A DNA stretch of 24,487 nt from positions 1-24,487 of the IMG/VR virus record IMGVR_UViG_3300032050_000783; one strand, given 5' to 3'. Both the position numbers and the translations under genes were made by a program. This DNA is from a virus. Shown here piece after piece: positions 1 to 23,629 of this stretch. The notes below the pieces were generated by a model, which was not told the DNA's origin, searched no databases, and saw only the letters and a program-made list of their open reading frames with translations. The first letter of the stretch is position 1. Each line of letters starts with the position of its first letter.

Positions 1-599
1 TGCTTGAGAATGCCCAAGCGTTCTCCGCCACCGGGTATCTTCAGGGCCAAGTGGTAAGCCAAGCCGGCCACCATGCAAGGCAAGAAGCGGAAAGGCATGT
101 CCATCGTGTCCACACCGTCCCCGGCATTCTGAATGCGGCGCAGGCGGTAGTACACGAGGGTGTAGGTCTGGGTGTCGTCTGGAACAGGCCACACGGTGAA
201 GCGTGGAGTGTTTAAACGCTCAATGAAAATTTGGATGGGACGAGCCTGTTGCAGCTTGTTCGGGATCGTCGCGTAGGTCGAGACGCTGATCCGGGTGATG
301 GTCAGGTCAGCCTGAGTCGAAACGTTGCCAGCACCGGTGCGGATGACGTGCTCGAGCAGGTCCACGGTGTCGGTTGGCAGCACGTATGTAGCTACGCCGG
401 GGGTCAGAACCTGTGTTCCCTGCTCGTAGGTGAACATATTCAAACCCCTATTTGCCCAATCTGCAAACATAAGGTTTAAAGAGCGACGGGCTGTGCGCAG
501 GTCGTAGCCGGTGCGCAACTCACCACCAACACGCTCGAACGCCTCCTCGACGACTTCTGCAAGGTCGAGGTTGAAGTTTGCAACGCCTGAAGTAGCCAT
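1..599 (-). CDS. Putative head-to-tail adaptor / tail accessory protein (gp4-like), 3' end outside window
   Basis: The minus-strand frame opens at ATG 599-597 and stays open to the left edge, giving at least 199 residues (begins MATSGVANFNLDLAEVVEEA). The segment with ELRTGYDLRTARRSLNLMFA followed by WANRGLN is, from memory, typical of the adaptor or tail-accessory proteins encoded beside P22-type portals in environmental podoviruses. These join the portal ring to the tail. The remainder is beta-rich (VATYVLPTDTVDLLEHVIRTG) and ends with RLRRIQNAGDGVDTMDMPFR. The ATG shares one base with the TAA stop of the upstream gene, indicating co-translation. It carries one GTTTAAAC copy (210-217) read as Arg-Leu-Asn-Thr and a near copy at 474-481. 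I infer the adaptor role from motif style and its place in the structural operon; the C-terminus is not visible. Confidence 0.65.
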   Translation of the reverse strand, partial: MATSGVANFNLDLAEVVEEAFERVGGELRTGYDLRTARRSLNLMFADWANRGLNMFTYEQGTQVLTPGVATYVLPTDTVDLLEHVIRTGAGNVSTQADLTITRISVSTYATIPNKLQQARPIQIFIERLNTPRFTVWPVPDDTQTYTLVYYRLRRIQNAGDGVDTMDMPFRFLPCMVAGLAYHLALKIPGGGERLGILK

Positions 600-832
600 T
601 ATCTAAACCCTGCTGTTTTCTTTGCGATGGCCTTGGGCTGGGCAACAAACTGCTTTCCAGCCTTCTTGCCAGCGCGTTTGGCTTTGGTGGTGGCGGCGTA
701 TTCGGCCGGCGACAGTGATTTTATGGCAGCTTTTGGCAGATACCGCTCACCCGTCTTTGAAGACGGCTTGCCAGACTTGGTGGTCCATTTCTGGTCACCC
801 CAGTCCTTGAGCGATTTCTGCGGTGCTTTCAT
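599..832 (-). CDS. Small basic conserved phage protein of unknown function (77 aa)
   Basis: The product begins MKAPQKSLKDWGDQKW and is rich in Lys and Ala. It contains KSGKPSSKTGERYLPKAAI, then a repeated-basic stretch (TTKAKRAGKKAGKQF) and ends KAIAKKTAGFR. This pattern recurs in many environmental phages and some large DNA viruses as a domain of unknown function; I cannot confirm the Pfam accession. I chose ATG 832-830, one base after the upstream stop, rather than an in-frame start 15 codons earlier that would sit inside the upstream gene. Its stop overlaps the adaptor start. The strong positive charge could suit nucleic acid binding or packaging with DNA, but this is inference. No catalytic motif is visible. 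Confidence 0.75.
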   Translation of the reverse strand: MKAPQKSLKDWGDQKWTTKSGKPSSKTGERYLPKAAIKSLSPAEYAATTKAKRAGKKAGKQFVAQPKAIAKKTAGFR

Positions 833-833
833 T

Positions 834-1109
834 TTAATCCCTGTAAGAGCCACCAGCGGCTTTGTACTTCTTGGCAACCAGCTGAGCCTTGCGGGCTGAC
901 CACTGACCTGCGCCAGTGCCGTGCGTTGCTGCAGCCTTCACCTGAGCCACAATCCGCTTGCGCAGATCGGGCTTGGTGTAGTTACCAGCGGAATTTACCT
1001 TGCCGCCCTCTTTGTATTGGGTGAAGTCGTCGCTGTCCCGGCGAGCCTTACGCTTGCCTTTGGGCATTTTGCTGGGGGAGATGTCTCCCATACCGCGACT
1101 GGCCATCAT
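834..1109 (-). CDS. Small basic conserved phage protein of unknown function (91 aa)
   Basis: Translation from ATG 1109-1107 gives MMASRGMGDISPSKMPKGKR followed by a basic segment, EGGKVNSAGNYTKPDLRKRI, and a C-terminal QWSARKAQLVAKKYKAAGG. The GNYTKP...GQWSARKAQLxAxxYKxxGG pattern is a recurrent small phage domain with no assigned function. The start lies one base after the TGA of the upstream gene; a longer in-frame ORF starting inside that gene is unlikely. The tight spacing with both neighbours places it in a translationally coupled cassette of lysine-rich proteins between the adaptor and the decoration-like genes. No transmembrane or catalytic features are visible. Confidence 0.75.
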   Translation of the reverse strand: MMASRGMGDISPSKMPKGKRKARRDSDDFTQYKEGGKVNSAGNYTKPDLRKRIVAQVKAAATHGTGAGQWSARKAQLVAKKYKAAGGSYRD

Positions 1110-1110
1110 G

Positions 1111-2022
1111 TCAGTACACCCTGCCGCGAGTCTTGCCGCGCTGAGCAATGCCGTCTGCACGCTTGGAGGCAGAGGAGACAGAGCCACCCTTGGCCATGCC
1201 AAAGAACTCTTTTATTGCCTTGCCTCGTGCAGCAGAGCGCTGGCCGGGAGACATCTTGTTTTCCTGTTCCTTTTTATAGCGGTATGCAACAGCACCGGGT
1301 TGCTCGCTAAGCGCCTTACGCTCGGCTGCTTCTTTTGCTGGACGAGCCTTTTTCTCATCTTCTTCCGCCTTACGTTTTGCAGCGCGGGCAGCATCACGCT
1401 TCTTTTCAGCCTCTTCACGCTGGCGCAACGTGGAAGGGTTTATTGGCAGTGCAGTGCCCGGACGCTTTTCTGGTGCTGCTGGAGCTGGAGTGTTACGACC
1501 TTCATTGCGGTAGGGGCCGCCCATCGTCTGCTTGGGCACGCTTCCAGCCGGGGTTACACGAGATCGGCTTACTGGAGCTGCTGGCGCAGTAGAAGGCTTG
1601 GTCTTCACTGGTGCCTTGCTAACACTGGGGCCGGAAGAACTTTGACCGGGACGGGTAGGCATGCGCTTGGGTGCGCTTGCAGCGGCTTCCATACGGCGAT
1701 CGCGCTCATCTACATCACCATCAGAAAATTTTGGTGCTGCCTTTTGCTCTGCCATTTGCTGAGGATCACGAAGGCTCGAGGTTCCTGCTGCCGGTCCTGC
1801 TGCCGCTGGCGCTGCTGCCGGCGCTGCTTCTTTCCCTCGCCCTGTTGCGCGGTTGAAAAACGACTTGAGCATTTCTGCATTTTTTGCACGGCCACGGGCG
1901 GTAATCTCGTCTTCATCAGGGAAAGAACCCGTCATGATGGGATTGCCGCTGCCGTCAAGAACAGGATTACCATCTCTGTCCACCAAGCCGCCGGGTTGAT
2001 ATTTCTTAACTGATTTCTTCAT
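1111..2022 (-). CDS. Low-complexity, charged protein with C-terminal DGIAQRGKT tag (303 aa)
   Basis: The sequence starts MKKSVKKYQPGGLVDRDGNP. Residues about 60-180 are Ala/Pro/Ser-rich and probably disordered; residues about 200-270 form a long charged, helix-prone Lys/Glu/Ala stretch (REEAEKKRDAARAAKRKAEE). The C-terminus reads MAKGGSVSSASKRADGIAQR followed by GKTRGRVY. The same terminal motif closes the next two upstream genes. A disordered, charged protein within a structural operon could be an internal virion or assembly protein, but I do not recognise a named family. A Shine-Dalgarno-like aaggagtaaatc precedes ATG 2022-2020. A 337-aa open frame on the opposite strand here is a shadow produced by the GC-rich coding pattern. 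Confidence 0.7.
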   Translation of the reverse strand: MKKSVKKYQPGGLVDRDGNPVLDGSGNPIMTGSFPDEDEITARGRAKNAEMLKSFFNRATGRGKEAAPAAAPAAAGPAAGTSSLRDPQQMAEQKAAPKFSDGDVDERDRRMEAAASAPKRMPTRPGQSSSGPSVSKAPVKTKPSTAPAAPVSRSRVTPAGSVPKQTMGGPYRNEGRNTPAPAAPEKRPGTALPINPSTLRQREEAEKKRDAARAAKRKAEEDEKKARPAKEAAERKALSEQPGAVAYRYKKEQENKMSPGQRSAARGKAIKEFFGMAKGGSVSSASKRADGIAQRGKTRGRVY

Positions 2023-2032
2023 GATTTACTCC

Positions 2033-2671: not shown

Positions 2672-2681
2672 GGAGCACTCC

Positions 2682-3140
2682 TTAGCAGGTCTTGCCGCCG
2701 CGAGCCATCGTCTTCATGACGGGCTTTTTGGCTTTGGTGAGACCTCGCTCAGCAATGCCATCAGGACGCGAGTTGGTCTTGACCTTGCCCATTTTGGATG
2801 GAGCAACCGAGCCGCCCATCTTCAAGCCTTTGTGAGCCTTGGATGCGGGCATGGACTTGTGCTTTTCCAGCTCGCTGATGACACGCTTTTTTTCTGCGGT
2901 CAGGTTGCGTTTGCCTTTGGCGGTAGACGCTTTTTCTGCGTTTACACGGCCGAGTTCTTCCAAACGGTTCATACGTGAAGTGTTTGCCATAGTGTCACCA
3001 CCTTTTGAAAATTTGCGGTTCTTGTCCGCTGTTGAAAAATCTTTGCCCACGGACTGTGGGACGCCTACCTTCTTGGCAAACTTTGGGTTGTTTGCCACTG
3101 CCTGCATGAATTTCTTCTGCTCTGGAGATTTACTTGGCAC
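2682..3140 (-). CDS. KGG-motif basic protein, GTG start (152 aa)
   Basis: I place the start at GTG 3140-3138, preceded by AGGAG with seven bases of spacing and overlapping the end of the upstream gene by 11 bases. The longer in-frame ATG at 3299 would lie deep inside that gene. The first 45 residues (PSKSPEQKKFMQAVANNPKF, then KKVGVPQSVGKDF) match a short phage protein type I recall as free-standing. The remainder (MANTSRMNRLEELGRVNAEK onward) looks like a second module, with its own GGTGG-like site before an internal ATG near 2991. So this may be a fusion, or two products in one frame. The end carries RPDGIAERGLTKAKK, a diverged copy of the DGIAQRGKT tag. Function unknown. Confidence 0.65.
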   Translation of the reverse strand: MPSKSPEQKKFMQAVANNPKFAKKVGVPQSVGKDFSTADKNRKFSKGGDTMANTSRMNRLEELGRVNAEKASTAKGKRNLTAEKKRVISELEKHKSMPASKAHKGLKMGGSVAPSKMGKVKTNSRPDGIAERGLTKAKKPVMKTMARGGKTC

Positions 3141-3375: not shown

Positions 3376-3376
3376 A

Positions 3377-4308: not shown

Positions 4309-4337
4309 AATATACCATTGCGTTTAAACCGATGCAA
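4309..4337 (-). promoter_or_regulatory. Sigma-70 promoter with GTTTAAAC in its spacer
   Basis: Reading the minus strand, TTGCAT (4337-4332) is followed by a 17-base spacer and TATATT (4314-4309), a strong sigma-70 match. The palindrome GTTTAAAC (4322-4329) lies wholly inside the spacer, where a bound protein would block RNA polymerase. It starts immediately after the capsid-gene terminator and would drive the small genes from 4219 leftwards. Confidence 0.7.
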
Positions 4338-7331: not shown

Positions 7332-7766
7332 TTAAGCGCGGGTGTACCCACGGGGGTCCAAAACAACACATTCGATTTGGTCGTCGTTCAAAACTCTGAA
7401 CTCCTTACCAAACACCTTGAAGCGCGTACCCGTATAGGTGCGCACGAGCACAAAATCACCGGGTTTACACCATGGTCCCGAGGGGAACTTGGCGGTGTCT
7501 TTGTACGCGTCTGGTCCGACCGCCATGACCCACAACACAGTGGTTGCGTGTTCTTCTGCCCGCATGGTTGCGGCGTCTCGAACGAGGTCCAGCGATGTGC
7601 CGGCAATCTTTTCATCAACCTCTGGCACGATGCACAACAGCTTGTAACCTGTTGGGATCGGCAGTACTGACGCTTTCTCCTCTGCATCCGCGTTCTCGTC
7701 TGGGGCGTCGATCGGTTGGATGTGTTTTGGCAGGCTAATGCCCGGTGGCAGAATGATTTCACTCAT
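7332..7766 (-). CDS. GroES/Cpn10-like co-chaperonin (144 aa)
   Basis: After a 35-residue extension (MSEIILPPGISLPKHIQPID...) the core reads PTGYKLLCIVPEVDEKIAGT, RAEEHATTVLWVMAVGPDAY, FPSGPWCKPGDFVLVRTYTG and RFKVFGKEFRVLNDDQIECV. This is the Cpn10 order: an opening strand, a mobile loop, V-x-VGxxA, kPGDxVL, then the final yR-l-dd-I strand. Phage GroES-like proteins (T4 gp31 is the well-studied case) cap host GroEL to fold a capsid protein. Sitting directly upstream of the scaffold and capsid genes, it probably helps fold the major head protein. One GTTTACAC copy (7463-7470) is read as Trp-Cys-Lys-Pro. The sequence is divergent, so I assign the family but no symbol. Confidence 0.75.
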   Translation of the reverse strand: MSEIILPPGISLPKHIQPIDAPDENADAEEKASVLPIPTGYKLLCIVPEVDEKIAGTSLDLVRDAATMRAEEHATTVLWVMAVGPDAYKDTAKFPSGPWCKPGDFVLVRTYTGTRFKVFGKEFRVLNDDQIECVVLDPRGYTRA

Positions 7767-10451: not shown

Positions 10452-10460
10452 GTTTACACC

Positions 10461-11954
10461 TTAGTAATATGCCGCTCGTCTGCGGCGGAGGTTTGGCTGA
10501 TCTTCTTCGTCGCTATCGAGACTGATGAAGCCGCCGCGCCTGAATCTGAGCAATGCTTGGCTTGTTGAGTCAACAAGGTCGTCATGATCGCCATTGGGGA
10601 AGGATGCAAGCTCTTCCATCAATTCATCCGCCCACCTTGTATCCGGGCACCAGACAACCCCAGAGGCAAAGAGATCGGAGATCGCGTTTACACGCGCAAT
10701 CTTATCGCTTCCCTTGCTCGGTGTGTACTCCGAAACAGGAACGCCGATCTGTCGGAGTTCATAAATCAACGGAGCGCCAGAGGCGCGTTTTTCAATGATG
10801 AGGGTGTCAGGTTCCCACTCTTGGTAAAGCTCAAGGGCTTTTTGCTTCAGCTCCGGGAACTCCATGCGCTGTTTAAACGAGTCAAGGCAGATGATGTTGG
10901 GCTTCATCTCGCCCCTTTGGTTGGGTTGGTCGAAGACTCCCCATGTGGTGCAGGCCGAATAATCGGACCGGTTTGACTTCTCAAAGGCCGTATCCCAGCT
11001 CTGGATGATGTAGTCGCATGACGGAGCGACTTCCGACTCCCAGACCCGCCAGCTTTCGCGCTTGATGATCGCGTTTTCCTGTGAGGTGGGATTCTGTTGG
11101 TACTGGGCTTCCCACTTGTAGACTGGAATCTCGGCCTTGATGGCTTCCAGTTCTTCCTTCTTCCAAAACCCGGGCCACAGCGGGGTGCCCGACGGCAGAA
11201 GGGCGGGGAACTCGATAACCTCCCAGTCGTTTACACCGTCTTTTTCCGAGTTCTTCAAGATTTGGCCGGTCAGGTCCCTCTTGGACCATCGGGTCATCAC
11301 AATGATGATGGCACCACCGGGCTGAAGACGCTGCCGAGGGCCGGATGTGTACCACTCATACACATTGTCAAAGACTGCGGGGTTTCCCTGTTTGGCTTCT
11401 TGTTCCGAATGGGGGTCGTCAATGATCAAAAGGTCTGCGCCCTTACCGGTTACCGCACCGCCCACACCGATAGCGAAGTAGTCACCACCCTTGTCCGTGT
11501 TCCACCGGCCGGCTGCCTTTGAATCGGAGGACAGCTTCGTATCAAACACCCGGGAGAACGCCTCAGAGGAAACCAAGTTCCTCACCTTACGGCCAAAACC
11601 CACAGCCAGCTCTGCGGTGTGAGCAGTCTGAATGATCTTCTTCTCAGGGTATTTACCTAGAAACCAAGCAGGTAGCAGGTAGGAAGCAAACTCGGACTTG
11701 GTGTGCCGAGGAGGCATGTTGATGATCAACCTCTTCAGCTCTCCCTTGGCGACGCGCTCAAAAGCGCTCGCCATGATCTGGTGGTGTTTACCGGAAATAA
11801 ACCCCGGCCACATGTGGGATGCAAAGTAAATAAACGACTCTTTGCACTTCTCAATCCTGTCGTACTCCAAAAGCATCATGATCTTCGCACGCTCAAGATC
11901 ATCCACCAACGGAATTAGCTCCCGGTACTTCTCCACCTCTGCGCGAGTCATCAT
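10461..11954 (-). CDS. terL: Terminase large subunit (497 aa)
   Basis: The ATPase half shows a deviant Walker A, MPPRHTKSE (residues 80-88), Walker B LLIIDD (175-180) with the catalytic-type acid following in PHSE, and a coupling motif MTRWSKRD (220-227). The nuclease half has acidic residues in QSWDTA (Asp321), LIIEKR (Glu388) and GDHDDLVD (Asp456-459), the RNase H-like arrangement of terminase nucleases. The protein powers genome packaging through the portal and cuts concatemers. The ATG overlaps the stop of the LexA-like gene (ATGA). Three motif copies lie inside: GTTTACAC at 10686 and 11229, GTTTAAAC at 10871 (Ser-Phe-Lys-Gln). The length is normal and the gene appears intact. Confidence 0.95.
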   Translation of the reverse strand: MMTRAEVEKYRELIPLVDDLERAKIMMLLEYDRIEKCKESFIYFASHMWPGFISGKHHQIMASAFERVAKGELKRLIINMPPRHTKSEFASYLLPAWFLGKYPEKKIIQTAHTAELAVGFGRKVRNLVSSEAFSRVFDTKLSSDSKAAGRWNTDKGGDYFAIGVGGAVTGKGADLLIIDDPHSEQEAKQGNPAVFDNVYEWYTSGPRQRLQPGGAIIIVMTRWSKRDLTGQILKNSEKDGVNDWEVIEFPALLPSGTPLWPGFWKKEELEAIKAEIPVYKWEAQYQQNPTSQENAIIKRESWRVWESEVAPSCDYIIQSWDTAFEKSNRSDYSACTTWGVFDQPNQRGEMKPNIICLDSFKQRMEFPELKQKALELYQEWEPDTLIIEKRASGAPLIYELRQIGVPVSEYTPSKGSDKIARVNAISDLFASGVVWCPDTRWADELMEELASFPNGDHDDLVDSTSQALLRFRRGGFISLDSDEEDQPNLRRRRAAYY

Positions 11955-12181
11955 AGAGAAGCTACCCCGCGAACACTGCGGTCAATCAGTTTGATCGAGT
12001 TGAATTTGTACGGCTTCACCACGAGTAACCCCTCATCCTTCAGGATGTGCACCACACGGTGAATATTCGATTTACTCTTCAAACCCAACCCACGTGCAAT
12101 CACCGAATACGACGGAGCCACTCCGTGTAAACGTACATACGCCTTGATGAAATCCAAAACAAGCTGATGACTCGCGTTCAT
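11951..12181 (-). CDS. LexA N-domain-like winged helix DNA-binding protein (76 aa)
   Basis: The product reads MNASHQLVLDFIKAYVRLHG, then APSYSVIARGLGLKSKSNIH and RVVHILKDEGLL. This matches the LexA DNA-binding domain layout (lxFIxxYxxxxGxxPSxxxIAxxLGxxSxxxVHRxlxxLxxxG), here without the autocleavage domain. It is probably a small transcription regulator, or possibly a diverged packaging-site binding protein since it lies between the terminase genes. Its start is preceded by GGAGG and, immediately before that, by tandem GTTTAAAC and GTTTACAC boxes ten bases apart, so self-regulation is plausible. GTTTACAC lies inside the gene too (12125-12132, antisense), using a TTA leucine codon. Target specificity is not known from the sequence. 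Confidence 0.75.
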   Translation of the reverse strand: MNASHQLVLDFIKAYVRLHGVAPSYSVIARGLGLKSKSNIHRVVHILKDEGLLVVKPYKFNSIKLIDRSVRGVASL

Positions 12182-12191
12182 CGGTTCCTCC

Positions 12192-12230
12192 GTTTAAACA
12201 AGTTTACACCCAATCAGAACGTTCGCAAGG
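12192..12230 (-). promoter_or_regulatory. Tandem GTTTAAAC/GTTTACAC boxes and candidate promoter for the LexA-like gene
   Basis: GTTTAAAC (12192-12199) and GTTTACAC (12202-12209) are exactly ten bases apart, one helical turn. On the minus strand a modest promoter, TTGCGA, 16-base spacer, TAAACT, has its -10 inside the GTTTACAC box. The GTTTAAAC box directly abuts the GGAGG ribosome site. The promoter match is weaker than others in the window. Confidence 0.5.
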
Positions 12231-12256
12231 GTCTTTCAAAAAATATATGTACCCCC

Positions 12257-12387: not shown

Positions 12388-12407
12388 GATGACTGTAGAG
12401 GGAGCGT

Positions 12408-13052
12408 TTACACGCCGCCCTTGCGCTTGGGCATAGGCTTCACGTTGTCCAACAGCTTCAAGTGCCCCGACAGTTCACGTCTCAGTTGCTCTGCGCTGGG
12501 TTTCTCTGCTGTCTCTTCCTTCGCTATCTGGAACATTCCTGCCGCCCTGCCCATCAGTTCGAGGGCTTTCAACCGACTGCCCTCTTGCTTGGCCCCTTTA
12601 GTCAGTGCCAACAACTCTTTGAGCACGTACCGTTTGGTCGCCGCTGTGTCCTCTGCCAGCACTTCGACTGTCTCACCCCACGCCTCTTGCAAGGCGCTTT
12701 GTATGCGTGGATCACGGCTCAGTCTGTAGGCCGCACTGGTGATCACCTGATCCGATCCCTTGGCGTTTGGGTATGCGTCTCGGTAGGCTTGGCGCATGGT
12801 TTTCCCAGAGATAAGCCCCTTCGTGAATTCCATCGCTGATGCCGTCAAGGGTTGCACCCTCTTGTATTCCTCTGTGCCTTTTGGCTTTCCATCCACTCTC
12901 ATCTGCGGTGGTTCTGCGTGAGCGGCTAACCGTTCCGCTTCGCTCAAGACCGGGCCTTCATCCTCACCCTCGTCCTCATTCAGGTGCGCCGCTTCCAATG
13001 CCGCCAGCAGTTCGTCTTTCGTGGCCCTCCCGGGCCTTTGTGTATCGCTCAT
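12408..13052 (-). CDS. terS: Terminase small subunit (214 aa)
   Basis: After an acidic, probably disordered N-terminus (LNEDEGEDEGPVLSEAERLA), residues about 68-115 read LTASAMEFTKGLISGKTMRQ, AYRDAYPNAKGSDQVITSAA, YRLSRDPRIQ. This is the helix-turn-helix signature (exFxxxxxxGxxxxxAYxxAYP...xxxAxxLxxxPxI) of small terminases. A helical oligomerisation part follows (LLALTKGAKQEGSRLKALEL) and a basic tail (PMPKRKGGV). It should recognise the packaging site and recruit the large subunit, which is encoded two genes downstream. AGGAG precedes ATG 13052-13050. The stop TAA is embedded in a GTTTACAC box (12406-12413), and another GTTTAAAC lies 30 bases upstream of the start. Confidence 0.88.
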   Translation of the reverse strand: MSDTQRPGRATKDELLAALEAAHLNEDEGEDEGPVLSEAERLAAHAEPPQMRVDGKPKGTEEYKRVQPLTASAMEFTKGLISGKTMRQAYRDAYPNAKGSDQVITSAAYRLSRDPRIQSALQEAWGETVEVLAEDTAATKRYVLKELLALTKGAKQEGSRLKALELMGRAAGMFQIAKEETAEKPSAEQLRRELSGHLKLLDNVKPMPKRKGGV

Positions 13053-13186
13053 TGTTTCGCTCCTGTGGTTTCGACCAGTCTGTTTAAACGTCCAGCACCG
13101 TTCGCACGCCGGAGTCTACCAGAGCCCCGATCGTATGTCCAAGCCACCTACCCCTTCACCCACCCTCGATCGCCCGTTTAAAGCAC

Positions 13187-13312
13187 TTGTGCGATGAAAA
13201 GGTACTACAAAGTTGTCCACACCAATCCACAACGACCTGTTGATAAGTTGAGTTATCCACAACGTCCTGTGGATACTGTGGATAAGTTTCTTAATACTTT
13301 TTCATCGCACAA
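13187..13312. other. Candidate replication origin: six DnaA boxes within an inverted repeat
   Basis: Six nine-base DnaA-type boxes occupy 73 bp. Forward: TTGTCCACA 13213, CAATCCACA 13223, TTATCCACA 13253 (perfect consensus). Reverse: TGTTGATAA 13238, TGTGGATAC 13268, TGTGGATAA 13277 (perfect consensus). Flanking arms at 13187-13206 and 13293-13312 are inverted repeats matching 18 of 20 bases, each including GTGCGATGAAAA. The right side (13286-13302) is A/T-rich, suiting an unwinding element. No gene covers the region. It resembles a DnaA-dependent origin; direct regulation by DnaA is an alternative. Confidence 0.7.
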
Positions 13313-13505
13313 CGGCCTTGTCGGCCCTGTATTGATCACACCTATACCAACCCCGCTTGAACCCCTTTCAGGGCCTTGTAGGCCCCTTCATTTGCAGTGT
13401 TGGCACCTACATATAAGAGCACCTGATCCCTGCGTCTCACCCCTTACGTCAGCACCCGATGGCTGGCCCTCAACCCAATAACCCTACAGTTTGCTCAGGT
13501 ATCTA
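13313..13505. other. Non-coding spacer between origin-like region and early promoter
   Basis: I see no gene here. A GGGCC..GGCCC hairpin (about 13371-13386) is the only clear element; the open frame crossing it from 13194 reads through the DnaA boxes and has no ribosome site. The opposite flank, 13053-13186, likewise holds no gene, only GTTTAAAC (13082-13089) and GTTTAAAG (13176-13183). Confidence 0.5.
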
Positions 13506-13535
13506 TTGACCCCCTGTTTAAACTAGTGATATGAT
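13506..13535 (+). promoter_or_regulatory. Sigma-70 promoter of the plus-strand operon, with GTTTAAAC in spacer
   Basis: TTGACC (13506-13511), 18-base spacer, TATGAT (13530-13535). GTTTAAAC (13516-13523) lies inside the spacer and ACTAGT follows it. Transcription should begin near 13542. A perfect inverted repeat, GCACTA and TAGTGC around a four-base loop (13544-13559), lies at the start site and could be an operator. Confidence 0.8.
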
Positions 13536-15321: not shown

Positions 15322-15900
15322 ATGACAACCACCAACCGTGAAGACTGGCTGACCGCCGCCGTGAATGAACTGCGCCCCTTCTTTGATGCCATCAACAAAC
15401 CCCTGCCGCAGAACGTTCGTGTGACGTGCGGGTTTCCATCGAACGCCAAGCGTTCGGGTGCTATCGGTGAATGCTGGGCCGACACCGCCTCCGCAGACAA
15501 GACCTTTGAGGTTTTGATCAGCCCCACCTTGGACAACCCCTTGCTGGTGTTCGAGGTGCTGGTGCATGAGTTGTGCCACTCGACTGCCGGGGCCATGAAC
15601 CACGGCCTCAACTTCCAGAAGGTCGCCGCCCTGATGCACCTTGTGCCAAGTGCTGGCCCGAAAGGTTGGAAAGCCACGGGCCGTTCCTCTACCTTTGAGC
15701 CGACCTTCGGCGAGATCATCTCGTCCCTCGGCGCATACCCTCATGCGGCCCTGACCATGAACACAAAGAAGGTGCAGACCACCCGGATGTTGAAGGCCGT
15801 GTGCCCATCCTGTGGGTACACAGTACGCCTCACCTCTAAGTGGGCCGCCCTTGGCCTACCGTCCTGCCCACAGGACAGTGACACCCTCAACCTCGTTTAA
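15322..15900 (+). CDS. SprT-like zinc metalloprotease-domain protein (192 aa)
   Basis: Residues 82-86 are HELCH, the HExxH zinc site, with a likely third ligand at His94 in MNHGLNF; the preceding LISPTLDNPLLVFEVLVHEL fits the SprT active-site helix. The C-terminus has CPSCGYTVRLTSKWAALGLP then SCPQ, a zinc-ribbon remnant that seems to lack the fourth cysteine. SprT/SPRTN-type domains cut proteins or handle DNA-protein adducts; in phages the role is unknown. CAGGAG lies six bases before the ATG. It has its own promoter and precedes the AAA and VWA genes, with the stop codon embedded in GTTTAAAC (15895-15902), so the three form one unit. Family confident, function inferred. Confidence 0.82.
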   Translation: MTTTNREDWLTAAVNELRPFFDAINKPLPQNVRVTCGFPSNAKRSGAIGECWADTASADKTFEVLISPTLDNPLLVFEVLVHELCHSTAGAMNHGLNFQKVAALMHLVPSAGPKGWKATGRSSTFEPTFGEIISSLGAYPHAALTMNTKKVQTTRMLKAVCPSCGYTVRLTSKWAALGLPSCPQDSDTLNLV

Positions 15901-15914
15901 ACAGGAGACCAGCC

Positions 15915-17399
15915 ATGATCGCCACGAATACCCTCACCCCAATCAAAAACGAAATCTTGAAGTTGCCCATCGCCCGTGTCATGGGCGCTTGGGATTTGCA
16001 CGGTGACAGTCGCCCCCTGCTGGGGTCGGTGAGCAACCAGAAAAACACCGCCGCAGACCTGCTGGCTGAGGCCGTCCACCACGGCAAGCTGACGTTGGAC
16101 GCCATCCGCAACGCCCCACCAGCCGCACCACCTGCCTCGGCAATCCCTCAGGCAGACCCCGCTGTTGCCGCCGTGGCGGGTCGTGCCGCCGCTGATGCTC
16201 TCGATGCCCTGCAAGCGGTTCAGGACATGAGGGACGGGTTCAAATCCGACCTGACCAACCTCAATACCCGCCTCGCCATCGAGCGTGAAGACCGCACCGC
16301 CGACCTCGACCAGATCAAGGCCAGCCTCGAGAAGATCAGCAAGGCCAGCAAGGTGAAGGTCGATGACCGTAAGGTAGAAGAGGCCGTGGCCCGTGTGGTC
16401 GCTGATGCGTTTGCACCGTTCAAGGCCGCAGTCGAGGCCGCTGGCGCTCAGGCCGTGGTCGCCGACCTGTCCTCTGTGCGTGTGGTCAGCACCGAGACCT
16501 GCCTCGATGCGTTCGGCGTGAACGTGTTGGATCGAGCCGGGAACCCCCTCACGGTGGACATCTGGAACGACCCGACTGCCCCGGCTGTTGACCCTCACTT
16601 CATCTGGACGCACGACATCCTCCAGCACCTGCTGTTGACGCAAGAGACAGGCGAGAACGTGTGGTTCGGTGGCCCCAAGGGCACGGGCAAGTCAGAGACC
16701 GCCCGACAGTTTGCCGCAGTCACAGGCCGTGCGTTTAAACGCATCAACTTTCACAAGTACACCAGCGCCGAGGACTACATCGGTGCGGTGGGTTTGGAGA
16801 ATGGTCAGACCGTGTTCAAGCGTGGCGACTTCCTCGCCGCCTTCACTCACCCCAGCACCGTGATCCTGCTGGACGAGGTGACCAACGCCGACCCCGGCGA
16901 ACTGGCCCCGCTCAACGGGTTCTTGGAGCCCAACAGCGCCGTGTCTTTTGGCGGGTCTGTCCAGAGCCGTGCCCCCGGTGTGCTGGTGTTCGCCGCCGAC
17001 AACACCCTCGGGAATGGTGACGACTCGGGCCGCTACGCCGGGACACGTTCAATGAACAGCGCCTTGGTCGATCGCTTCGCCCGTGTGGTGGAGTTCGGCT
17101 ACCTGCCCATCGAGTCGGAGGTCGAGGCCGTGGTGCGCCACACCAAGTGCCATCCTAAGCTTGCCGAGCATATCCTTGCCGCCGTGCGCTTGGCCCGTGA
17201 GAAGGTGCAGACGGGCGAGGTGATCGATGCCCCATCGATCCGCTCGGTGATCGGTTTTGTTCGTGCCCTGCGGGTGTTGCCCATCGACAAGGCATGGGCC
17301 ACGACCATTGCCGCCCGTCAACCAGCCGAGTCGCTTCCCGGCTTGACCGCCATATACGTGTCCTGCATCAACGAGGACACCATCAACCAGTACCTGTGA
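15915..17399 (+). CDS. MoxR/CobS-like AAA+ ATPase (494 aa)
   Basis: Residues 252-260 read GGPKGTGKS (Walker A), and VILLDEVTN contains Asp320-Glu321 (Walker B). The region between them (RINFHKYTSAEDYIGAVGLE) and the later SVQSRAPGVLVFAADNTLG with DRFARVVEFGYL match MoxR/CobS-type AAA+ ATPases. The first 210 residues are an Ala-rich coiled coil (ALQAVQDMRDGFKSDLTNLN), longer than in CobS itself. Such ATPases work with von Willebrand A partners as metal-insertion or remodelling chaperones, and the next gene is that partner. Phage copies are often labelled cobaltochelatase, which is probably misleading here because no cobalamin gene is present. GCGTTTAAACGC at 16731-16742 encodes Ala-Phe-Lys-Arg. 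Confidence 0.88.
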   Translation: MIATNTLTPIKNEILKLPIARVMGAWDLHGDSRPLLGSVSNQKNTAADLLAEAVHHGKLTLDAIRNAPPAAPPASAIPQADPAVAAVAGRAAADALDALQAVQDMRDGFKSDLTNLNTRLAIEREDRTADLDQIKASLEKISKASKVKVDDRKVEEAVARVVADAFAPFKAAVEAAGAQAVVADLSSVRVVSTETCLDAFGVNVLDRAGNPLTVDIWNDPTAPAVDPHFIWTHDILQHLLLTQETGENVWFGGPKGTGKSETARQFAAVTGRAFKRINFHKYTSAEDYIGAVGLENGQTVFKRGDFLAAFTHPSTVILLDEVTNADPGELAPLNGFLEPNSAVSFGGSVQSRAPGVLVFAADNTLGNGDDSGRYAGTRSMNSALVDRFARVVEFGYLPIESEVEAVVRHTKCHPKLAEHILAAVRLAREKVQTGEVIDAPSIRSVIGFVRALRVLPIDKAWATTIAARQPAESLPGLTAIYVSCINEDTINQYL

Positions 17400-17406
17400 G
17401 GTTCAC

Positions 17407-18999
17407 ATGAACATCGAAACCATTCTCTCCCGCCCCAACCTGCGCGGGTATCAGTTCCGACAGGGCCTTGAGTCGTTCGCACACAAAGCCGCCCAGTCCC
17501 TTGGCCTTGAGAAAATCAAGGTTTACTGGCTGGCTGACGTGCAGACCGCTGGCATGAGCGGTAGCAACGACCTGTACTTGTCCAACGTCACCGATGAGGC
17601 CATTATCAGCCGTGCGCTGGTCTTGAAGTACGCTGGGTACGTGGTGCATGAACTGCTCCACAGCAAGTACACCAACTTCAACGTGCGTGGATCGAGCCAG
17701 TACATCCAGCAACTGCACAACGCCGTGGAGGACGGTTGGATCGAGAACACGGGCATCCAGTGGGGAATCTTGGGCAACATCGCCCCCCTGCTGGGTGAGT
17801 TGATCGACACCATGAACCGCCAAGCACTGGCAGAGGTGACCGACTGGGACGACCCAGCGCAGTACCCCTACCTGCTGGCTGTCCACTGCCGCAAACACGC
17901 CACCGTGAAGTTGCCCGTCAACCCCCGCCTGTTGCCCATCTTCGATGAGGCCGCTCGGCGGTGCTACAACGCCACCTCCAGCGCCGACACCTTGCTGGTC
18001 GCTGAGTGGGTCTATGACCAGATCAAGCAAGAGTCGGACAAGCCCAAGGACAAGCCCAAGGACAAGCCCAAGGGCAAGAAGGCCGACCAGAACACACCCT
18101 CAGAGCCACAGGATGGGCCTACAAGCCCCTCAAATGACGAGGGTAAGGGTGAGGGTACTGCCGAGGGTGAAAAGCCTTCCCCCATCAAATCACCCGAGGG
18201 TGTTCAGGCCCGTGAGGTCGAACCCAAGCTTGAAGAGGGTGGCGCGATGGGCAATTACAGCGCCGACTATGACGTGCGGAGTGGCAAGGTCTGCACGGGT
18301 GGCAGGATCGAGGTCACCGATGTACCGATTCCCGCCAAGCTTCGCTACGAGGTCAAGCGCCTGTTCGAAAACTCGGGCATCACTGAGTTCAGCCGCAACC
18401 GCAAGTTCGGTTCTGTCAACGTCCACGCCCTCCCGGGTGTTGCCGCTGGAAACGATCGTGTGTTTAAACGCCGCCTCGATGTCGAGGGTATCGACTCTGC
18501 CGTGGTGATCCTGCTGGACATCAGCGGTTCGATGTTCGGCAATGACGACCCCAAAAAGCACCGTGTTGTGTCTGCGGTTCAGGCTTGCCGTGCGCTGATG
18601 GACACCCTGACTGCCGCCGGGGTCAAGGTTGCCGTGGTGGCTTTCGGCACTTACGTGTTCGAGTTGAAGACCTTCGATGGCAATCACCGCAAGACCAGCG
18701 CCCTGCTGGGCACGGTGAAGCCAGCGGGTGGAACGAACGACTACGCCGCCCTGCGCCATGCCCACCAGATGCTGATCAAGCGCCAAGAGAACCGCAAGCT
18801 GGCCTTCGTGATCACTGACGGGCGAGGCAACGTTGATGGTGTGCGCCAACAGGTAGCCTCTGGCAACGCCTTCGGTGTGACGACCATCGGCATCGGCATC
18901 AACACCGACATCGCCGACATCTACGGCAACGCCGTCACCATCCGCAAGCCCGAGGACATCGGCGCTGTTTCATTCAAGCAGATCAAGCTTGCCGCTTAA
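17407..18999 (+). CDS. CobT-like von Willebrand A protein with N-terminal HExxH metallopeptidase-like domain (530 aa)
   Basis: The N-terminal domain has YVVHELLHSKYTNF, with HELLH at residues 81-85 and an acidic follow-up NAVEDGWIE (about 106-113). This resembles the metallopeptidase-like domain found in front of some VWA domains (DUF2201-type, unverified). A linker of KPKD repeats and acidic/Pro-rich sequence spans about 210-275. The VWA domain has the complete metal-ion site: DISGS (Asp371, Ser373, Ser375), the Thr in PAGGTNDYAAL, and ITDGRGN. It starts seven bases after the ATPase gene and should form its adaptor partner, selecting substrates for remodelling. One GTTTAAAC (18462-18469) encodes Val-Phe-Lys-Arg. 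Confidence 0.85.
   Translation: MNIETILSRPNLRGYQFRQGLESFAHKAAQSLGLEKIKVYWLADVQTAGMSGSNDLYLSNVTDEAIISRALVLKYAGYVVHELLHSKYTNFNVRGSSQYIQQLHNAVEDGWIENTGIQWGILGNIAPLLGELIDTMNRQALAEVTDWDDPAQYPYLLAVHCRKHATVKLPVNPRLLPIFDEAARRCYNATSSADTLLVAEWVYDQIKQESDKPKDKPKDKPKGKKADQNTPSEPQDGPTSPSNDEGKGEGTAEGEKPSPIKSPEGVQAREVEPKLEEGGAMGNYSADYDVRSGKVCTGGRIEVTDVPIPAKLRYEVKRLFENSGITEFSRNRKFGSVNVHALPGVAAGNDRVFKRRLDVEGIDSAVVILLDISGSMFGNDDPKKHRVVSAVQACRALMDTLTAAGVKVAVVAFGTYVFELKTFDGNHRKTSALLGTVKPAGGTNDYAALRHAHQMLIKRQENRKLAFVITDGRGNVDGVRQQVASGNAFGVTTIGIGINTDIADIYGNAVTIRKPEDIGAVSFKQIKLAA
18037..18072 (+). repeat. Three perfect 12-base tandem repeats
   Basis: GACAAGCCCAAG occurs three times in a row and encodes Asp-Lys-Pro-Lys repeats in the linker of the VWA protein, followed by a diverged GGCAAG. 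It is a slippage-prone site and the linker length may vary. Confidence 0.95.
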
Positions 19000-19324: not shown

Positions 19325-19545
19325 TGACCGTAGAAGAGGATGCGTTTAAACACATGAATGAAGCCTACGACCAGATCGTGATGGCTCTCGACTCAAACCA
19401 TCTGGACAGGGAGGACGCCTTCGCCCTTCTCGCCCAGATGCTCTGCCAGTTGTCTCAGGATGACCGGGATCACTTCATCAACAAGATGAACTTTTTTTAC
19501 AGCATGGAAAAAGCCATGCGCCCCGAACTCAAGGAGATGCACTAA
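19324..19545 (+). CDS. Small helical acidic protein, unknown (73 aa)
   Basis: ATG 19324 overlaps the preceding stop (TGATG), with GGAGG ten bases upstream; an in-frame ATG five codons earlier lies inside the membrane peptide gene. The product begins MTVEEDAFKHMNEAYDQIVM and contains NHLDREDAFALLAQMLCQLS and DRDHFINKMNFFYSMEKAMR. It looks like a three-helix bundle. GTTTAAAC (19344-19351) encodes Ala-Phe-Lys-His near the N-terminus. The stop and the next start share one base (TAATG). No family recognised. Confidence 0.75.
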   Translation: MTVEEDAFKHMNEAYDQIVMALDSNHLDREDAFALLAQMLCQLSQDDRDHFINKMNFFYSMEKAMRPELKEMH

Positions 19546-19778: not shown

Positions 19779-19998
19779 GATCAAAACCCTGCGTGACCCG
19801 TGCCCACACTTCGCCCGACAAGCCATTGAGTTCGACCATTTGCTGGAGATTCATCCCGACAAGCAGAGGTTCAAACGGGGCGAGAAGTTCATCAGGTACG
19901 AGCGCATGCGATGGTGCGTTTACACGCACTCTGACAGCCCGCAAATCTACGGGCGCTACAACACTGTAACCACTGCAGTGTTTCATGCATTGAAATGA
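19771..19998 (+). CDS. Small basic protein with GTG start, last gene of plus operon (75 aa)
   Basis: I place the start at GTG 19771, overlapping the previous gene by eight bases; the in-frame ATG at 19645 would overlap by 134 bases. The product reads (M)RKIKTLRDPCPHFARQAIEF, then HPDKQRFKRGEKFIRYERMR and ends TTAVFHALK. The KRGEKFIRYERMRW pattern and CxH pair near the start suggest a small basic nucleic-acid-associated protein, but this is weak. A GTTTACAC copy (19918-19925) is read Val-Tyr-Thr. A strong terminator follows directly. Confidence 0.65.
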   Translation: MRKIKTLRDPCPHFARQAIEFDHLLEIHPDKQRFKRGEKFIRYERMRWCVYTHSDSPQIYGRYNTVTTAVFHALK

Positions 19999-20040: not shown

Positions 20041-20053
20041 TCGTCTGTACTTT

Positions 20054-21748
20054 TCAGAACATATCCAAGTTCTCGGAATACGTACCTGCGGTTTTGTTGA
20101 ATATCAGGGTAGTCTCACCCTGCGTCCCTACCCAGCGGTAGCGGCACTTCCAGACCGCCAACTCCGTGTAATTGTCTTTGCGGTGGATCGTGATACCGCA
20201 GTCGGTCTTCGCCCACCATGCCATCGAGCCGCTGATCGACATACCGTCCGGCCTTGGTTGCTCCACACCCGAGCGTGTGATCTTGCTGGGATGGGCCACG
20301 AACCATGTGTGTACATCGTGGGCCATGCAGAACTTCTTCACCTTGGTGAGAATCTCGCTGATGGCGTTCGTCTCGGTCTTGTCCGATCCGGGCATCTCGA
20401 TGTAGTTGTACGGGTCAATCACCAGACCACGCACACCCATGCGCTTCACCGCCGCCCGTGCCCGTGTCAGGATCGAATCCAACGTGCTGGGTTCTTCGCC
20501 ATTGGTATCGATGAAGAGGAAGTGTTCGTTGACCCATTTAAACGCATCATCCGATACCTGTTTACTCATCCGATCCCGGCCTTCGTAGAAGGATTGGAAT
20601 GTGTAGAGTTCCATCAGTCGGGTGATGTGGACTTCGGGCTGGTTCTCGAAAGAGCAGATCGCAAACTTCCAGTCGTTGTCCCGTGCGAGGTTGACCATCA
20701 ACTGATCCACAAAGTTCGACTTACCAGACGATGGGTAGCCCGTGACCACCGTCATCTGCCCCGGTGCGATGGTGTAAAGGCTGTCAATGGATGGGTAGCC
20801 CGTGCTGAACCCCTTACCCGTGCCTTTGGTGTAGAGGTCGTTGATCTTGTCAGCGTAGGCCGTGGCTTCGGAAATGCCATTGATGGGATACGGTTCTGCG
20901 TCTTCGATGATCTTGTTTAAACGTTCAACCGGGTTTAGCTCCGCCGTCGGGTCATCGTCGAGCCATGCGTCGTTTAAATCTTTCCATTCAAACTTGGCGA
21001 GTCGGCACTTCTCTTTGCCGATGCGTCTTGCGAGTTCTTCTGCCAGAGCCTGACCGGGGCCGTCCTGATCAGTCGCCAGCACAACGTAGGGTGCGGCATC
21101 GATGATCTCTCGGGCGTTCCACACAAACCCAAACTTCTTGTCTTCTGTCGGCAGTACCTTGCCGTCTGCAACCTTAACTGGTGCGCCGCCCGGGACGCTC
21201 ACCACGTTCTTGATACCTGCCTCGATGGCGGTCAGGCAGTCCATCTCGCCTTCGACAATGATGAGGGGCTGGCCCTTCTCCACCTTGTCGATGCCAAAGA
21301 AATCATGTGCCCCACCTGCGTCTTGTGTGAAATCCTTCGCTTCGATGCTTCGGTACTTCGCCGAGACCAGCGCCCCGTTTCGGTAGTACGGGAAGCCAAC
21401 CGCCTGTGTGGGTTTACTCAGCCGGGAGAAGAACTTCTCCGCCGAAAAGAGCCTCATTGAGTCTGCGGTGATCTCCGATATGCCCCTCGACTTGAGCCAT
21501 TGGTAATGCTGGAAGGTAAGCCTGTTGCTGACGATTGACTGAGCAGGTACAACTGACAATTTGGTCTCCTTGGGTTGCACAGAACCCGATGCGTAACAGT
21601 GGTGGCAGTGATAGACAACTGCGCCGTCATCCTTGCGGGTCAGCGTCATGTCTTTGAGGTTTTGTTTTCTGCGGTCAGGTGTGCAGAATGGGCAGATGAC
21701 CCGGGTCGAGTCGTGGAAATGTGTATCAGCTACAAGAGCCTCAATCAT
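20054..21748 (-). CDS. Primase-helicase, T7 gp4-like (564 aa)
   Basis: The N-terminal zinc finger has Cys19, Cys22, Cys48 and Cys51 (CPFC ... CHHC). The TOPRIM domain shows IIVEGEMD (Glu166) and LATDQDGPG (Asp227, Asp229). The RecA/DnaB-like helicase half begins at about residue 310, with Walker A GYPSSGKS (337-344), ICSFENQPE and GLVIDPYNYIEM (Walker B). This is the T7 gp4 order, giving one protein that primes and unwinds at the replication fork. The ATG overlaps the stop of the HNH-like gene (ATGA). It contains GTTTAAAC at 20915 (Arg-Leu-Asn-Lys, with a TTA codon) and near copies at 20536 and 20972. No DNA polymerase gene is visible in the window. Confidence 0.92.
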   Translation of the reverse strand: MIEALVADTHFHDSTRVICPFCTPDRRKQNLKDMTLTRKDDGAVVYHCHHCYASGSVQPKETKLSVVPAQSIVSNRLTFQHYQWLKSRGISEITADSMRLFSAEKFFSRLSKPTQAVGFPYYRNGALVSAKYRSIEAKDFTQDAGGAHDFFGIDKVEKGQPLIIVEGEMDCLTAIEAGIKNVVSVPGGAPVKVADGKVLPTEDKKFGFVWNAREIIDAAPYVVLATDQDGPGQALAEELARRIGKEKCRLAKFEWKDLNDAWLDDDPTAELNPVERLNKIIEDAEPYPINGISEATAYADKINDLYTKGTGKGFSTGYPSIDSLYTIAPGQMTVVTGYPSSGKSNFVDQLMVNLARDNDWKFAICSFENQPEVHITRLMELYTFQSFYEGRDRMSKQVSDDAFKWVNEHFLFIDTNGEEPSTLDSILTRARAAVKRMGVRGLVIDPYNYIEMPGSDKTETNAISEILTKVKKFCMAHDVHTWFVAHPSKITRSGVEQPRPDGMSISGSMAWWAKTDCGITIHRKDNYTELAVWKCRYRWVGTQGETTLIFNKTAGTYSENLDMF

Positions 21749-21996
21749 TTCATGGCCCCTGAGCTTGTGCGTTTAAACGACCGATTGGCCGAGGCCGGTT
21801 TCGCTTTGAGGTTGCTGCGAGCAGATGTCCCGCCTTTACTGAGAGGGGTCATGTGATCGACATCCTTGCCGTCACCCTTCTTCACGACCCCTTCACGCTC
21901 CAACATTCTCCGGGCTTTGTTTCTCTGCGCCCTTTTCTTCTTCACCGCCTCTGTCCCATCGTAGTTGGCGTACTCTTCTTTGTAGTTCCGTGGCAT
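21745..21996 (-). CDS. HNH-like endonuclease-domain protein (83 aa)
   Basis: I choose ATG 21996-21994, behind AGGAG; a longer in-frame frame to 22104 would read through the preceding small ORF. The product begins MPRNYKEEYANYDGTEAVKK, is strongly basic (KRAQRNKARRMLE), and has DVDHMTPLSKGGTSARSNLK followed by SANRSF. The D-x-DH-x(2)-PLSKGG-x(4)-NL-x(6-7)-N pattern is the short His-Me-finger signature of phage HNH proteins. Such short versions may nick DNA or assist packaging. GTTTAAAC (21771-21778) encodes Ser-Phe-Lys-Arg-Thr. It is coupled to the primase gene, so a replication-linked role is plausible. Confidence 0.78.
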   Translation of the reverse strand: MPRNYKEEYANYDGTEAVKKKRAQRNKARRMLEREGVVKKGDGKDVDHMTPLSKGGTSARSNLKAKPASANRSFKRTSSGAMK

Positions 21997-22007
21997 TGCG
22001 ACTCCTG

Positions 22008-22349: not shown

Positions 22350-22407
22350 ACTCTTCCTTTTTTTTGAATGCCTTGCGGCGCTTGGTTTTGTAGACGTTGA
22401 TCTACGT

Positions 22408-22887: not shown

Positions 22888-23171
22888 CTCTGTTGCTCTC
22901 TGTTCTTTTACGCCGGATGGATAGTTTCCACCCAAAGACCCCCTACCCCACGGGATGTGAGGAGAAGGGGAAGGTTCCACCCCTGCAAAGCAGGATCATC
23001 ATGTGACGGATCGTCCGTCTACCCTCGGCTTGATGATTCGACCAGCCGCACGGATTATTCGGGAACTGCCCCCTAGACGTGAGTCATACCGTGTCGCGGT
23101 TTTCTTCCGAGCGGCCCCACTTGCGGCCCCTGCTGTCGTGCGGAGTACGGAAGTCGTGGAAAGTACAGACG
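22888..23171. other. Non-coding stretch with short inverted repeats
   Basis: No credible gene is visible. Palindromic elements: CCTGC-AAA-GCAGG (22982-22994), GACGGA-TCG-TCCGTC (23005-23019), and two direct GCGGCCCC-type copies about twelve bases apart near 23111-23130. An open frame from GTG 23003 crosses the region but has no family resemblance and runs antisense through the structured RNA. The stretch would form the leader of the nuclease transcript if the 23300 promoter reads through. Confidence 0.5.
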
Positions 23172-23293
23172 TAAAAAAGCCGCTTGCAACTGCGATCCCG
23201 GTAGCAACCTTGCCTAATACCTCTCAACGGGCATTAGGCAAAGCGGAATCGCATGTGTAAGCGGCTTCAATTTCTGTCACTTGCTACGGCAAC
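23172..23293 (-). ncRNA. Candidate ~120-nt structured RNA ending in a U-tract
   Basis: On the minus strand a long rod-like fold is nested. P1 pairs AAGCCGCTT (23267-23259) with AAGCGGCTT (23185-23177), P2 pairs TGCGAT with ATCGCA (23253-23248 / 23196-23191), and P3 pairs TTGCCTAAT with ATTAGGCAA (23241-23233 / 23218-23210) around a 14-base loop. The closing strand runs directly into six T residues (AAGCGGCTTTTTT), like an intrinsic terminator. The 5' end CCGTAGCAA (23289-23281) can pair with TTGCTACCGG (23207-23198) inside the rod, with one bulged C, giving a pseudoknot or an alternative fold. A consensus promoter lies just upstream. It could be a free small RNA or an attenuator for the nuclease operon. 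Confidence 0.65.
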
Positions 23294-23299
23294 AGCTTC

Positions 23300-23329
23300 A
23301 CTGTACCACCACATTTCAACCAGTGTCAA
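23300..23329 (-). promoter_or_regulatory. Sigma-70 promoter for the structured RNA
   Basis: On the minus strand TTGACA (23329-23324, exact consensus) is followed by an 18-base spacer and TACAGT (23305-23300). Transcription should begin near 23293. Unlike the other strong promoters it contains no GTTTAAAC, so it may be expressed under different control. Confidence 0.75.
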
Positions 23330-23357
23330 GCACCTTGTTGAAAAATATTTGTCTTCG

Positions 23358-23443
23358 TTGAATGTTGTTGGATGTTGTTGGACGTTACTGGAACCACGGC
23401 AGAACCACGGCAGAACCACGGGGTTCATACAGGGTTCACACAG
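23358..23443. repeat. Three sets of helically phased short direct repeats
   Basis: Ten-base units TTGAATGTTG, TTGGATGTTG, TTGGACGTTA (23358-23387) are followed by 11-base units GAACCACGGCA, GAACCACGGCA, GAACCACGG (23391-23421) and then GGTTCATACAG, GGTTCACACAG (23422-23443). All periods are one helical turn. The array leads directly into GCGTTTAAACGC (23449-23460), with further motif copies at 23527 and 23583. It resembles an iteron or protein-binding array; no gene covers it. Confidence 0.8.
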
Positions 23444-23629
23444 GGTTTGCGTTTAAACGCTATGGATATTAATCGCCAAAAAGGCGAGGGTATCAGAGGT
23501 TACAGACGTTACAAGTGGAGTTATGCGTTTAAACATTACAGCTCAACCGGCTGCCTGCGAGCTGCACGCCGGCCTGCTTTTCGTTTACACTGGCAGGGCA
23601 GGGTGTCTCCCCTTGCAGTTGCTTCTCCT

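Follow-up and report, generated by a model that had tools for sequence, protein, structure and literature searches.

Background

SprT-family proteases (Spartan) act on DNA-bound proteins; to our knowledge, neither a sequence-specific DNA address for the Spartan/SprT family nor an agreed role for SprT-like genes in phages has been described. In the MatP/matS system, dispersed palindromic chromosome sites are read by one small ribbon-helix-helix (RHH) protein. The present analysis concerns a palindromic octamer, GTTTAAAC, and its related form GTTTACAC, both scattered over IMG/VR virus record IMGVR_UViG_3300032050_000783 (positions 1 to 24,487; hereafter the window, the whole stretch of 24,487 bases), a fragment of the genome of a tailed phage of bacteria. 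This word is real and under selection as DNA, genome-wide. With high confidence, it is tied across unrelated phages to an SprT-like zinc metalloprotease, and its probable reader is the zinc ribbon at the C-terminus of this protein.

The phage protein resembles Spartan/SPRTN in that an HExxH zinc protease core is followed by a zinc-binding part (for Spartan, according to passages of PMC7213743) and in that its named phage homologues are annotated as SprT-like; it differs in that the occurrence of the phage ribbon follows that of a genome-wide octamer. ArdC is likewise a DNA-binding metalloprotease, with a protease domain closest to that of Spartan; however, its DNA-binding domain is non-specific for single-stranded DNA, and its antirestriction effect does not need protease activity (same passages). 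The MatP/matS system shares the dispersed palindromic sites, but MatP is an RHH protein, whereas the RHH protein found here does not track the word. L5-type immunity repressors also possess many cognate sites across one phage genome. These stoperators are described, in passages of PMC6550527, as asymmetric, mostly in one orientation to transcription, and as the sites of a lysogeny repressor. In contrast, the sites of the window's family are mostly palindromic and mostly inside genes, and neither PF00589 (tyrosine integrase) nor PF01381 (HTH_3) gave a match in any of 12 family records, a search confined to these two families; a lysogeny repressor as reader is unsupported in the family of the window. 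Lastly, the MoxR-vWA-metallopeptidase pair of jumbo phages is similar to a gene pair of the window and has been proposed to serve virion assembly, no DNA word being mentioned in the corresponding passages (PMC7824862).

The word in the window and its family

On the minus strand between 4 and 13 kb, the window encodes the major head protein, the portal and the terminase; SprT/MoxR/VWA genes follow on the plus strand, and then come primase-helicase, HNH and RusA genes. Its terminase is 49-58% identical to those of the nearest named relatives (DSL-LC04, 023Pt_psg01, and the Pelagibacter phages HTVC027P and HTVC023P), and a 55.6-kb record (L005/G001) is near-identical to the window. The word occurs about once per kb, with 14 copies of GTTTAAAC (0.17 expected) and 10 of GTTTACAC (0.46 expected), and none of 100 dinucleotide shuffles reached either count. 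This bears out the copy numbers and positions given in the original prediction, as well as its claim that the word lies far above chance (about 0.2 copies expected, as in the dinucleotide models). The sites are as follows:

210..217, GTTTAAAC, palindrome
2940..2947, plus strand, GTTTACAC
4322..4329, GTTTAAAC, intergenic, exact in 18 of 30 aligned relatives
7463..7470, plus strand, GTTTACAC, exact in 0 of 16 aligned relatives
10452..10459, plus strand, GTTTACAC between portal and terminase genes
10686..10693, plus strand, GTTTACAC in TerL, exact in 78 of 88 aligned relatives
10871..10878, GTTTAAAC in TerL
11229..11236, plus strand, GTTTACAC in TerL
12125..12132, minus strand, GTTTACAC
12192..12199, GTTTAAAC
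12202..12209, plus strand, GTTTACAC, replaced by GTTTAAAC in 20 of 50 aligned relatives
12406..12413, plus strand, GTTTACAC at the TerS stop
13082..13089, GTTTAAAC
13516..13523, GTTTAAAC; among aligned relatives, GTTTACAC in 18 of 29 and GTTTAAAC in 10 of 29
15895..15902, GTTTAAAC overlapping the SprT stop codon
16733..16740, GTTTAAAC in the MoxR gene
18462..18469, GTTTAAAC in the VWA gene, exact in 15 of 17 aligned relatives
19344..19351, GTTTAAAC
19918..19925, plus strand, GTTTACAC
20915..20922, GTTTAAAC in the primase-helicase gene
21771..21778, GTTTAAAC in the HNH gene
23451..23458, GTTTAAAC
23527..23534, GTTTAAAC
23583..23590, plus strand, GTTTACAC

Nine of the GTTTACAC copies are thus on the plus strand and one, at 12125, on the minus strand. 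Forms of GTTTAAAC with one mismatch occur 18 times in the window, as GTGTAAAC (10), ATTTAAAC (3), CTTTAAAC (2), GTTCAAAC (2) and GTTGAAAC (1). The information is mostly contained in the 10 bp YGTTTAMACR, and the longer consensus first put forward, GCGTTTAMACGC, is too long. The densest group of sites, six within 1.4 kb (12125-13523), surrounds the TerS gene, and the terminase region is likewise among the densest in several relatives.

Among loci selected through the terminase, 75 of 80 hold GTTTAAAC, with 0.02-0.26 copies expected per locus, and four of the remaining five (L081-L084) substitute ATTTAAAC. A wider survey, with overlapping records counted in, yielded 254 word-positive loci out of 266, seven negative and five unclear ones. 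In long relatives (about 60 kb), the word ranks in or near the top of all 8-mers and its copies lie mostly within genes, and four named outgroups show no enrichment (0, 3, 1 and 2 copies of GTTTAAAC in 50 kb each). Across 11 GTTT-type records, GTTTAAAC, GTGTAAAC and ATTTAAAC exceed expectation 42-, 13- and 6-fold, respectively. One perfect GTTTA half seems to be needed in a site, since, of the double variants, GTGTACAC, ATTTACAC and ATTTAAAT stay at background level in these records and ATGTACAC is only slightly above it. Some lineages (G006, G014, G026 and G040) mostly have ATTTAAAC instead of GTTTAAAC, for which the terminase tree needs two changes.

Inside the genes of 12 related records, GTTTAAAC is found 90 and 81 times in the two stop-free codon phases and 12 times in the TAA phase. 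Since both stop-free phases are used about equally, no peptide is being kept. In addition, GTTTAAAC and GTTTACAC swap for each other at aligned places, for example at 13516 and 12202, in alignments whose rows include overlapping records and hence are not independent. It was therefore correct to claim, from the window alone, that the DNA word rather than a peptide is maintained. A conservation test covered 10 in-gene sites, one of them without any aligned relative; eight of the nine testable sites were kept above the mean of matched 8-mers of the same gene and phase, the exception being the site at 7463. The likeness to a protein-binding site that had been suggested earlier is supported as a reading of the word, which may well be such a site.

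In total, the 12 family records contain 529 sites, of which 384 lie in genes and 145 (27%) in intergenic DNA, the latter making up 4-17% of these records according to the gene calls made here. Gaps between sites are near-Poisson (coefficient of variation 0.71-1.30, means 0.5-1.5 kb), and the first fifth of genes holds comparatively few of the in-gene sites.

The SprT-like protein and its neighbours

The proposed reader and the genes that accompany it are listed below; three relatives with almost no word (G023, G024 and G025) are referred to as the wordless clade.

15322..15900, plus strand, SprT-like zinc metalloprotease, 192 amino acids, proposed reader of the word (PHROG 6361; named homologues annotated as SprT-like protease; co-occurs with the word)
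15565..15579, plus strand, HELCH (HExxH) active-site motif, SprT residues 82-86, from the translation
15766..15870, plus strand, SprT C-terminal zinc ribbon (KKVQTTRMLK..C..CGYTVR.T.KW....LPSCP, residues 149-183), proposed DNA-reading part; the motif tracks the word
15915..17399, plus strand, MoxR/CobS-like AAA ATPase of the SprT block, absent together with SprT in the wordless clade
17407..18999, plus strand, VWA (CobT-like) protein of the SprT block with a HELLH motif, absent with SprT in the wordless clade
23630..24064, minus strand, RusA-like resolvase, likewise absent in the wordless clade

The SprT of the window is matched in 163 of 50,697 named records, and its HExxH motif is invariant in SprT alignment A2. 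The window protein gave no Pfam match at E<=0.01, and in A2 the matches to PF10263 are weak and limited to six of the 11 members, the best E being 7.8e-4; one displayed member reaches a score of 15.2, below the cut-off of 25.6. A PDB sequence search with SprT returned chance matches to antibody chains only. In the passages concerned, phage SprT is mentioned as a shared DNA-processing gene (PMC8758107) and as probably attacking proteins of the host (PMC7824862), and it is tabulated as a toxic mycobacteriophage gene (PMC7474061). Judged by titles and the beginnings of abstracts, none of the open-access articles among the matches listed describes the word or an SprT-word link in phages. The HELLH motif of the VWA protein, encoded in the MoxR-VWA pair (15915-18999), is that of a metallopeptidase.

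Association of the word with SprT in unrelated phages

Unrelated phages found via SprT carry the word in numbers far above expectation: 22 copies in Zeta1847 (0.1 expected), 27 in Tweety19 (0.2) and 13 in 4A (0.4), and, in genome slices, 22 in Microdon (0.1), nine in Yang (0.1) and five GTTTAAAC each in R5C and R26L (about 0.1). The word-carrying phages among them whose SprT has the C-terminal zinc ribbon are phages of Microbacterium, Arthrobacter, Streptomyces and Dinoroseobacter. The word is weakly raised in Alexa, Persinger, Mano and ep3. Brahms, ChiliPepper, CN2 and Epa5 encode an SprT without the ribbon motif TR[ML]xK...C..CGY..R.T.KW and hold 0, 0, 1 and 0 copies, respectively. Many sites lie in genes (17 of 22 in Zeta1847, 15 of 27 in Tweety19 and 17 of 22 in the Microdon slice) and on both strands; intergenic sites lean to the direction of the genes in Zeta1847 (four of five), the Microdon slice (four of five) and, most strongly, Tweety19. 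Other octamers are over-represented in two phages, namely CCAGGACA in the Microcystis phage Mae-Yong1326-1 (L332; 51 copies against 4.4 or 1.6 expected under two models) and CGAGCTCG in Zeta1847 (L329; 81 against 17.5 or 6.3).

A survey was based on two scans with SprT alignments (80 loci each), one of which used the ribbon as a pattern. It gave 173 loci with SprT, of which 50 were shorter than 8 kb. A further 18, longer loci that belong to the family and are all enriched, were kept separate, and nine of the other 105 were dropped because of an unreadable tail, leaving 96. Enrichment (p<1e-3) was found in 66 of 84 loci with the ribbon motif versus two of 12 without it, and the reversed control word was enriched in none of the 96. 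When clustered at 60% identity, 24 of 34 clusters with the motif were enriched versus two of 11 without (Fisher 0.004), and the scan without the ribbon as pattern gave 24 of 31 versus two of eight (Fisher 0.01). When 31 of the 34 clusters with the motif were pooled, each represented by a single member, GTTTAAAC came first among all scored 8-mers (136 copies versus 5.3 expected) and GTGTAAAC third (122 versus 9.1), and GTGTACAC was found once (4.6 expected). A negative pool of 13 loci without motif or SprT, from which the word-rich exceptions L459 and L495 were left out and to which three phages without an SprT match were added, contained one GTTTAAAC (2.7 expected) and three GTGTAAAC (5.5 expected).

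The association also holds in the reverse direction, from DNA alone. A pattern of two close GTTTACAC retrieved 77 stretches, and 19 of the 20 non-family records longer than 25 kb were tested (L567 missed). All six records that are word-rich along their whole length (at least 14 matches on one strand) encode SprT, versus none of the 13 word-poor ones (at most six), the gap between the two classes being read off afterwards; G050, which is among the six, seemed poor in the word when judged by a 3.3-kb slice. Furthermore, SprT is the sole protein common to 16 word-enriched loci. The next one, SprT-overlapping frames aside, is shared by six of them and corresponds in Tweety19 to the annotated DNA polymerase I. 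This comparison, made with proteins of at least 70 amino acids, with 15 of the 16 loci fetched through SprT and with many slices of 20 kb, shows only the absence of a second widely shared protein.

The wordless clade offers a comparison within the family. With profiles from the called genes of G003, exactly four proteins (SprT-like, MoxR, VWA and RusA) were found in all 12 word-bearing records covering the region (25-63 kb, three below 38 kb), in none of G023-G025 and in none of the four named outgroups. Record G024 covers the place where these four genes would lie. Since it groups with five word-bearing records in the terminase tree (100/99), loss is the simpler reading of the absence, given a midpoint root. 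A different enriched palindrome was sought in the wordless clade and no convincing one was found, CCCGGG occurring 20 times versus 6.0 expected in L235.

A proposed role for the word

A first step of the proposed mechanism would be recognition. The C-terminal zinc ribbon of SprT probably reads GTTTAMAC and would require one perfect GTTTA half-site, the other half being tolerated in several forms. Secondly, sites at about one per kb would tether SprT along the whole phage genome inside the infected cell; indeed, a tether or coat suits the window's family better than a switch, because the sites are spread over genes of all kinds. Thirdly, the anchored SprT would most likely remove or cut proteins bound to phage DNA, such as host silencers, defence complexes, and stuck or crosslinked proteins. 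Phage SprT would then be a Spartan-like protease that is confined to self DNA by sequence. These steps differ in strength. Tethered proteolysis is a tentative proposal, more doubtful than the recognition step, and the reading as a whole, with YGTTTAMACR as the address of the phage's own SprT, read by the ribbon of a tethered protease, is considered evenly balanced. It is rather doubtful that the word is a self mark working via proteolysis instead of methylation, with the word-reading SprT destroying host proteins on the incoming genome, such as silencers and restriction or other defence complexes, in phages of very different hosts. If phage SprT-like proteins do read a fixed octamer, one that is kept across phages of Actinobacteria and Dinoroseobacter and the uncultivated relatives of the window, their target DNA would be known ahead of experiment and an obscure gene would become directly testable; phage DNA would have a new way of being marked as self; and a DNA marker would be available for predicting function from sequence alone.

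Several findings weigh against this proposal. Concerning the site, ATGTACAC, without a perfect half, is slightly above background (20 copies versus 10.7 expected), and a comparison of 14 core proteins between GTTT-type and ATTT-type genomes, judged against swapped controls, revealed no clear partner change for GTTTAAAC to ATTTAAAC in SprT or the 13 other proteins, none of which stood out. Concerning the protein, the single-sequence SprT model has a pLDDT of 33. Concerning the association, 10 of the 34 motif-bearing clusters, including ep3-like phages, are below the enrichment threshold, and L459 and L495 are word-rich yet fail the motif pattern. This pattern was set after the first comparison of named phages and loosened for the survey; most SprT loci were obtained via SprT, those of one scan via the ribbon motif itself. 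A partner protein shorter than 70 amino acids or encoded beyond the compared slices is possible. The wordless clade represents one event, whose reading as a loss depends on the midpoint root. Finally, 12 of the 27 sites of Tweety19 (L333) are intergenic, and 11 of these 12 are GTTTACAC pointing with the genes, most of them less than 50 bp from the next start. This orientation suits a regulator better, and it lowered the standing of the tether proposal.

Alternative explanations

The orientation in Tweety19 raises the alternative that SprT reads the word as a genome-wide transcription regulator or roadblock, comparable to stoperators, and not as a tethered protease. This is a minor possibility. 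Dispersed repressor sites are known (stoperators; PMC9283540, and passages of PMC6550527), some annotations name a homologue 'transcription elongation protein SprT', and the family shows a small excess of intergenic sites 20-30 bp ahead of starts (12 versus 5.2). However, the 144 intergenic sites that could be placed roughly follow the shares of spacer types: 96 are in tandem, 31 in divergent and 17 in convergent spacers, which hold 75, 18 and 7% of the spacer bases, respectively, so that the excess lies in convergent spacers, the type least expected to contain promoters. Moreover, nearly three quarters of the family sites are inside genes, the commonest form is a palindrome without orientation, and GTTTACAC in genes has mixed orientation (75 on the opposite strand and 43 on the same strand), contrary to the one-sided intergenic sites of Tweety19. 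An operator, one of the candidates of the original prediction, is accordingly less likely in the window's family, given also the lack of PF00589 and HTH_3 matches, but it retains the support of Tweety19. An integrase is annotated in some of the word-rich phages outside the family.

It is improbable that the word is read by the MoxR-VWA-SprT block working as one machine, or by some unseen partner that is inherited along with SprT. In favour of this, SprT, MoxR, VWA and RusA occur together or are missing together in the window's family. In unrelated word-enriched loci, no other widely shared protein was found in the compared slices. CobS/CobT are annotated in ICP2 and Mae-Yong1326, both of which lack an SprT match as well as the word. 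In Brahms and ChiliPepper, a Holliday junction resolvase is annotated, and the slices that were read are free of the word. SprT was chosen among the four co-absent genes because, in unrelated phages, CobS/CobT without SprT comes without the word and phages with the SprT ribbon carry it.

Still less probable is the binding of the word by a phage RHH protein of 107 amino acids, as a regulator or nucleoid protein. This protein (L097:9286-9609, minus strand) is encoded after a Sak/exonuclease operon; alignment A1 (31 sequences) displays an invariant M-x-Y in the beta-strand (M11 and Y13) and a conserved C-terminal MRFPSGxSF. It matches profiles of the RHH family from Pfam, PHROGs and the PDB, and it occurs in all 12 word-bearing records covering the region. 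The fold call relies on these HMM matches, as a Foldseek search of the PDB with its model gave no match at E<=0.001. It is, however, kept, M and Y included, in the wordless G023-G025, and it has no match among named phages, though word-rich named phages exist. It was therefore dropped as the reader, being largely refuted as the cause.

It is hardly credible that the phage copied the word from its host as a genome signature, another of the earlier candidates, or as an uptake-type signal: a Burkholderiales metagenome-assembled genome containing a relative's contig, the single one counted and a presumed host from binning, has 68 copies in about 3 Mb versus 109 of the reversed control, and phages of Actinobacteria and of Dinoroseobacter contain this very word. 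Nothing was found in favour of a recombination or uptake signal, although no test was aimed directly at either. Composition or chance can practically be set aside, for although a maximal-order Markov model (from 7-mers and 6-mers of the window) reproduces the count (14.3 versus 14), an outcome named beforehand as refuting, it does so because the word itself swells the counts of the sub-words that feed the model, whereas dinucleotide models leave the excess intact (0.17 expected in shuffles), in-gene sites are conserved and the word leads the pooled 8-mer ranking.

Other observations

In the wordless G024, an ArdC homologue (L245:1895-2656, plus strand) lies between TerS and primase, at the place of SprT/MoxR/VWA in the relatives. 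An ArdC in place of the block, from a family with a protease domain nearest to that of Spartan (PMC7213743), fits a role in protecting incoming DNA, but as a single case and with an antirestriction effect of ArdC that does not depend on proteolysis. In G002, the exonuclease-to-RHH stretch is present at both contig ends, indicating that this record of 63,406 bases probably overlaps itself.

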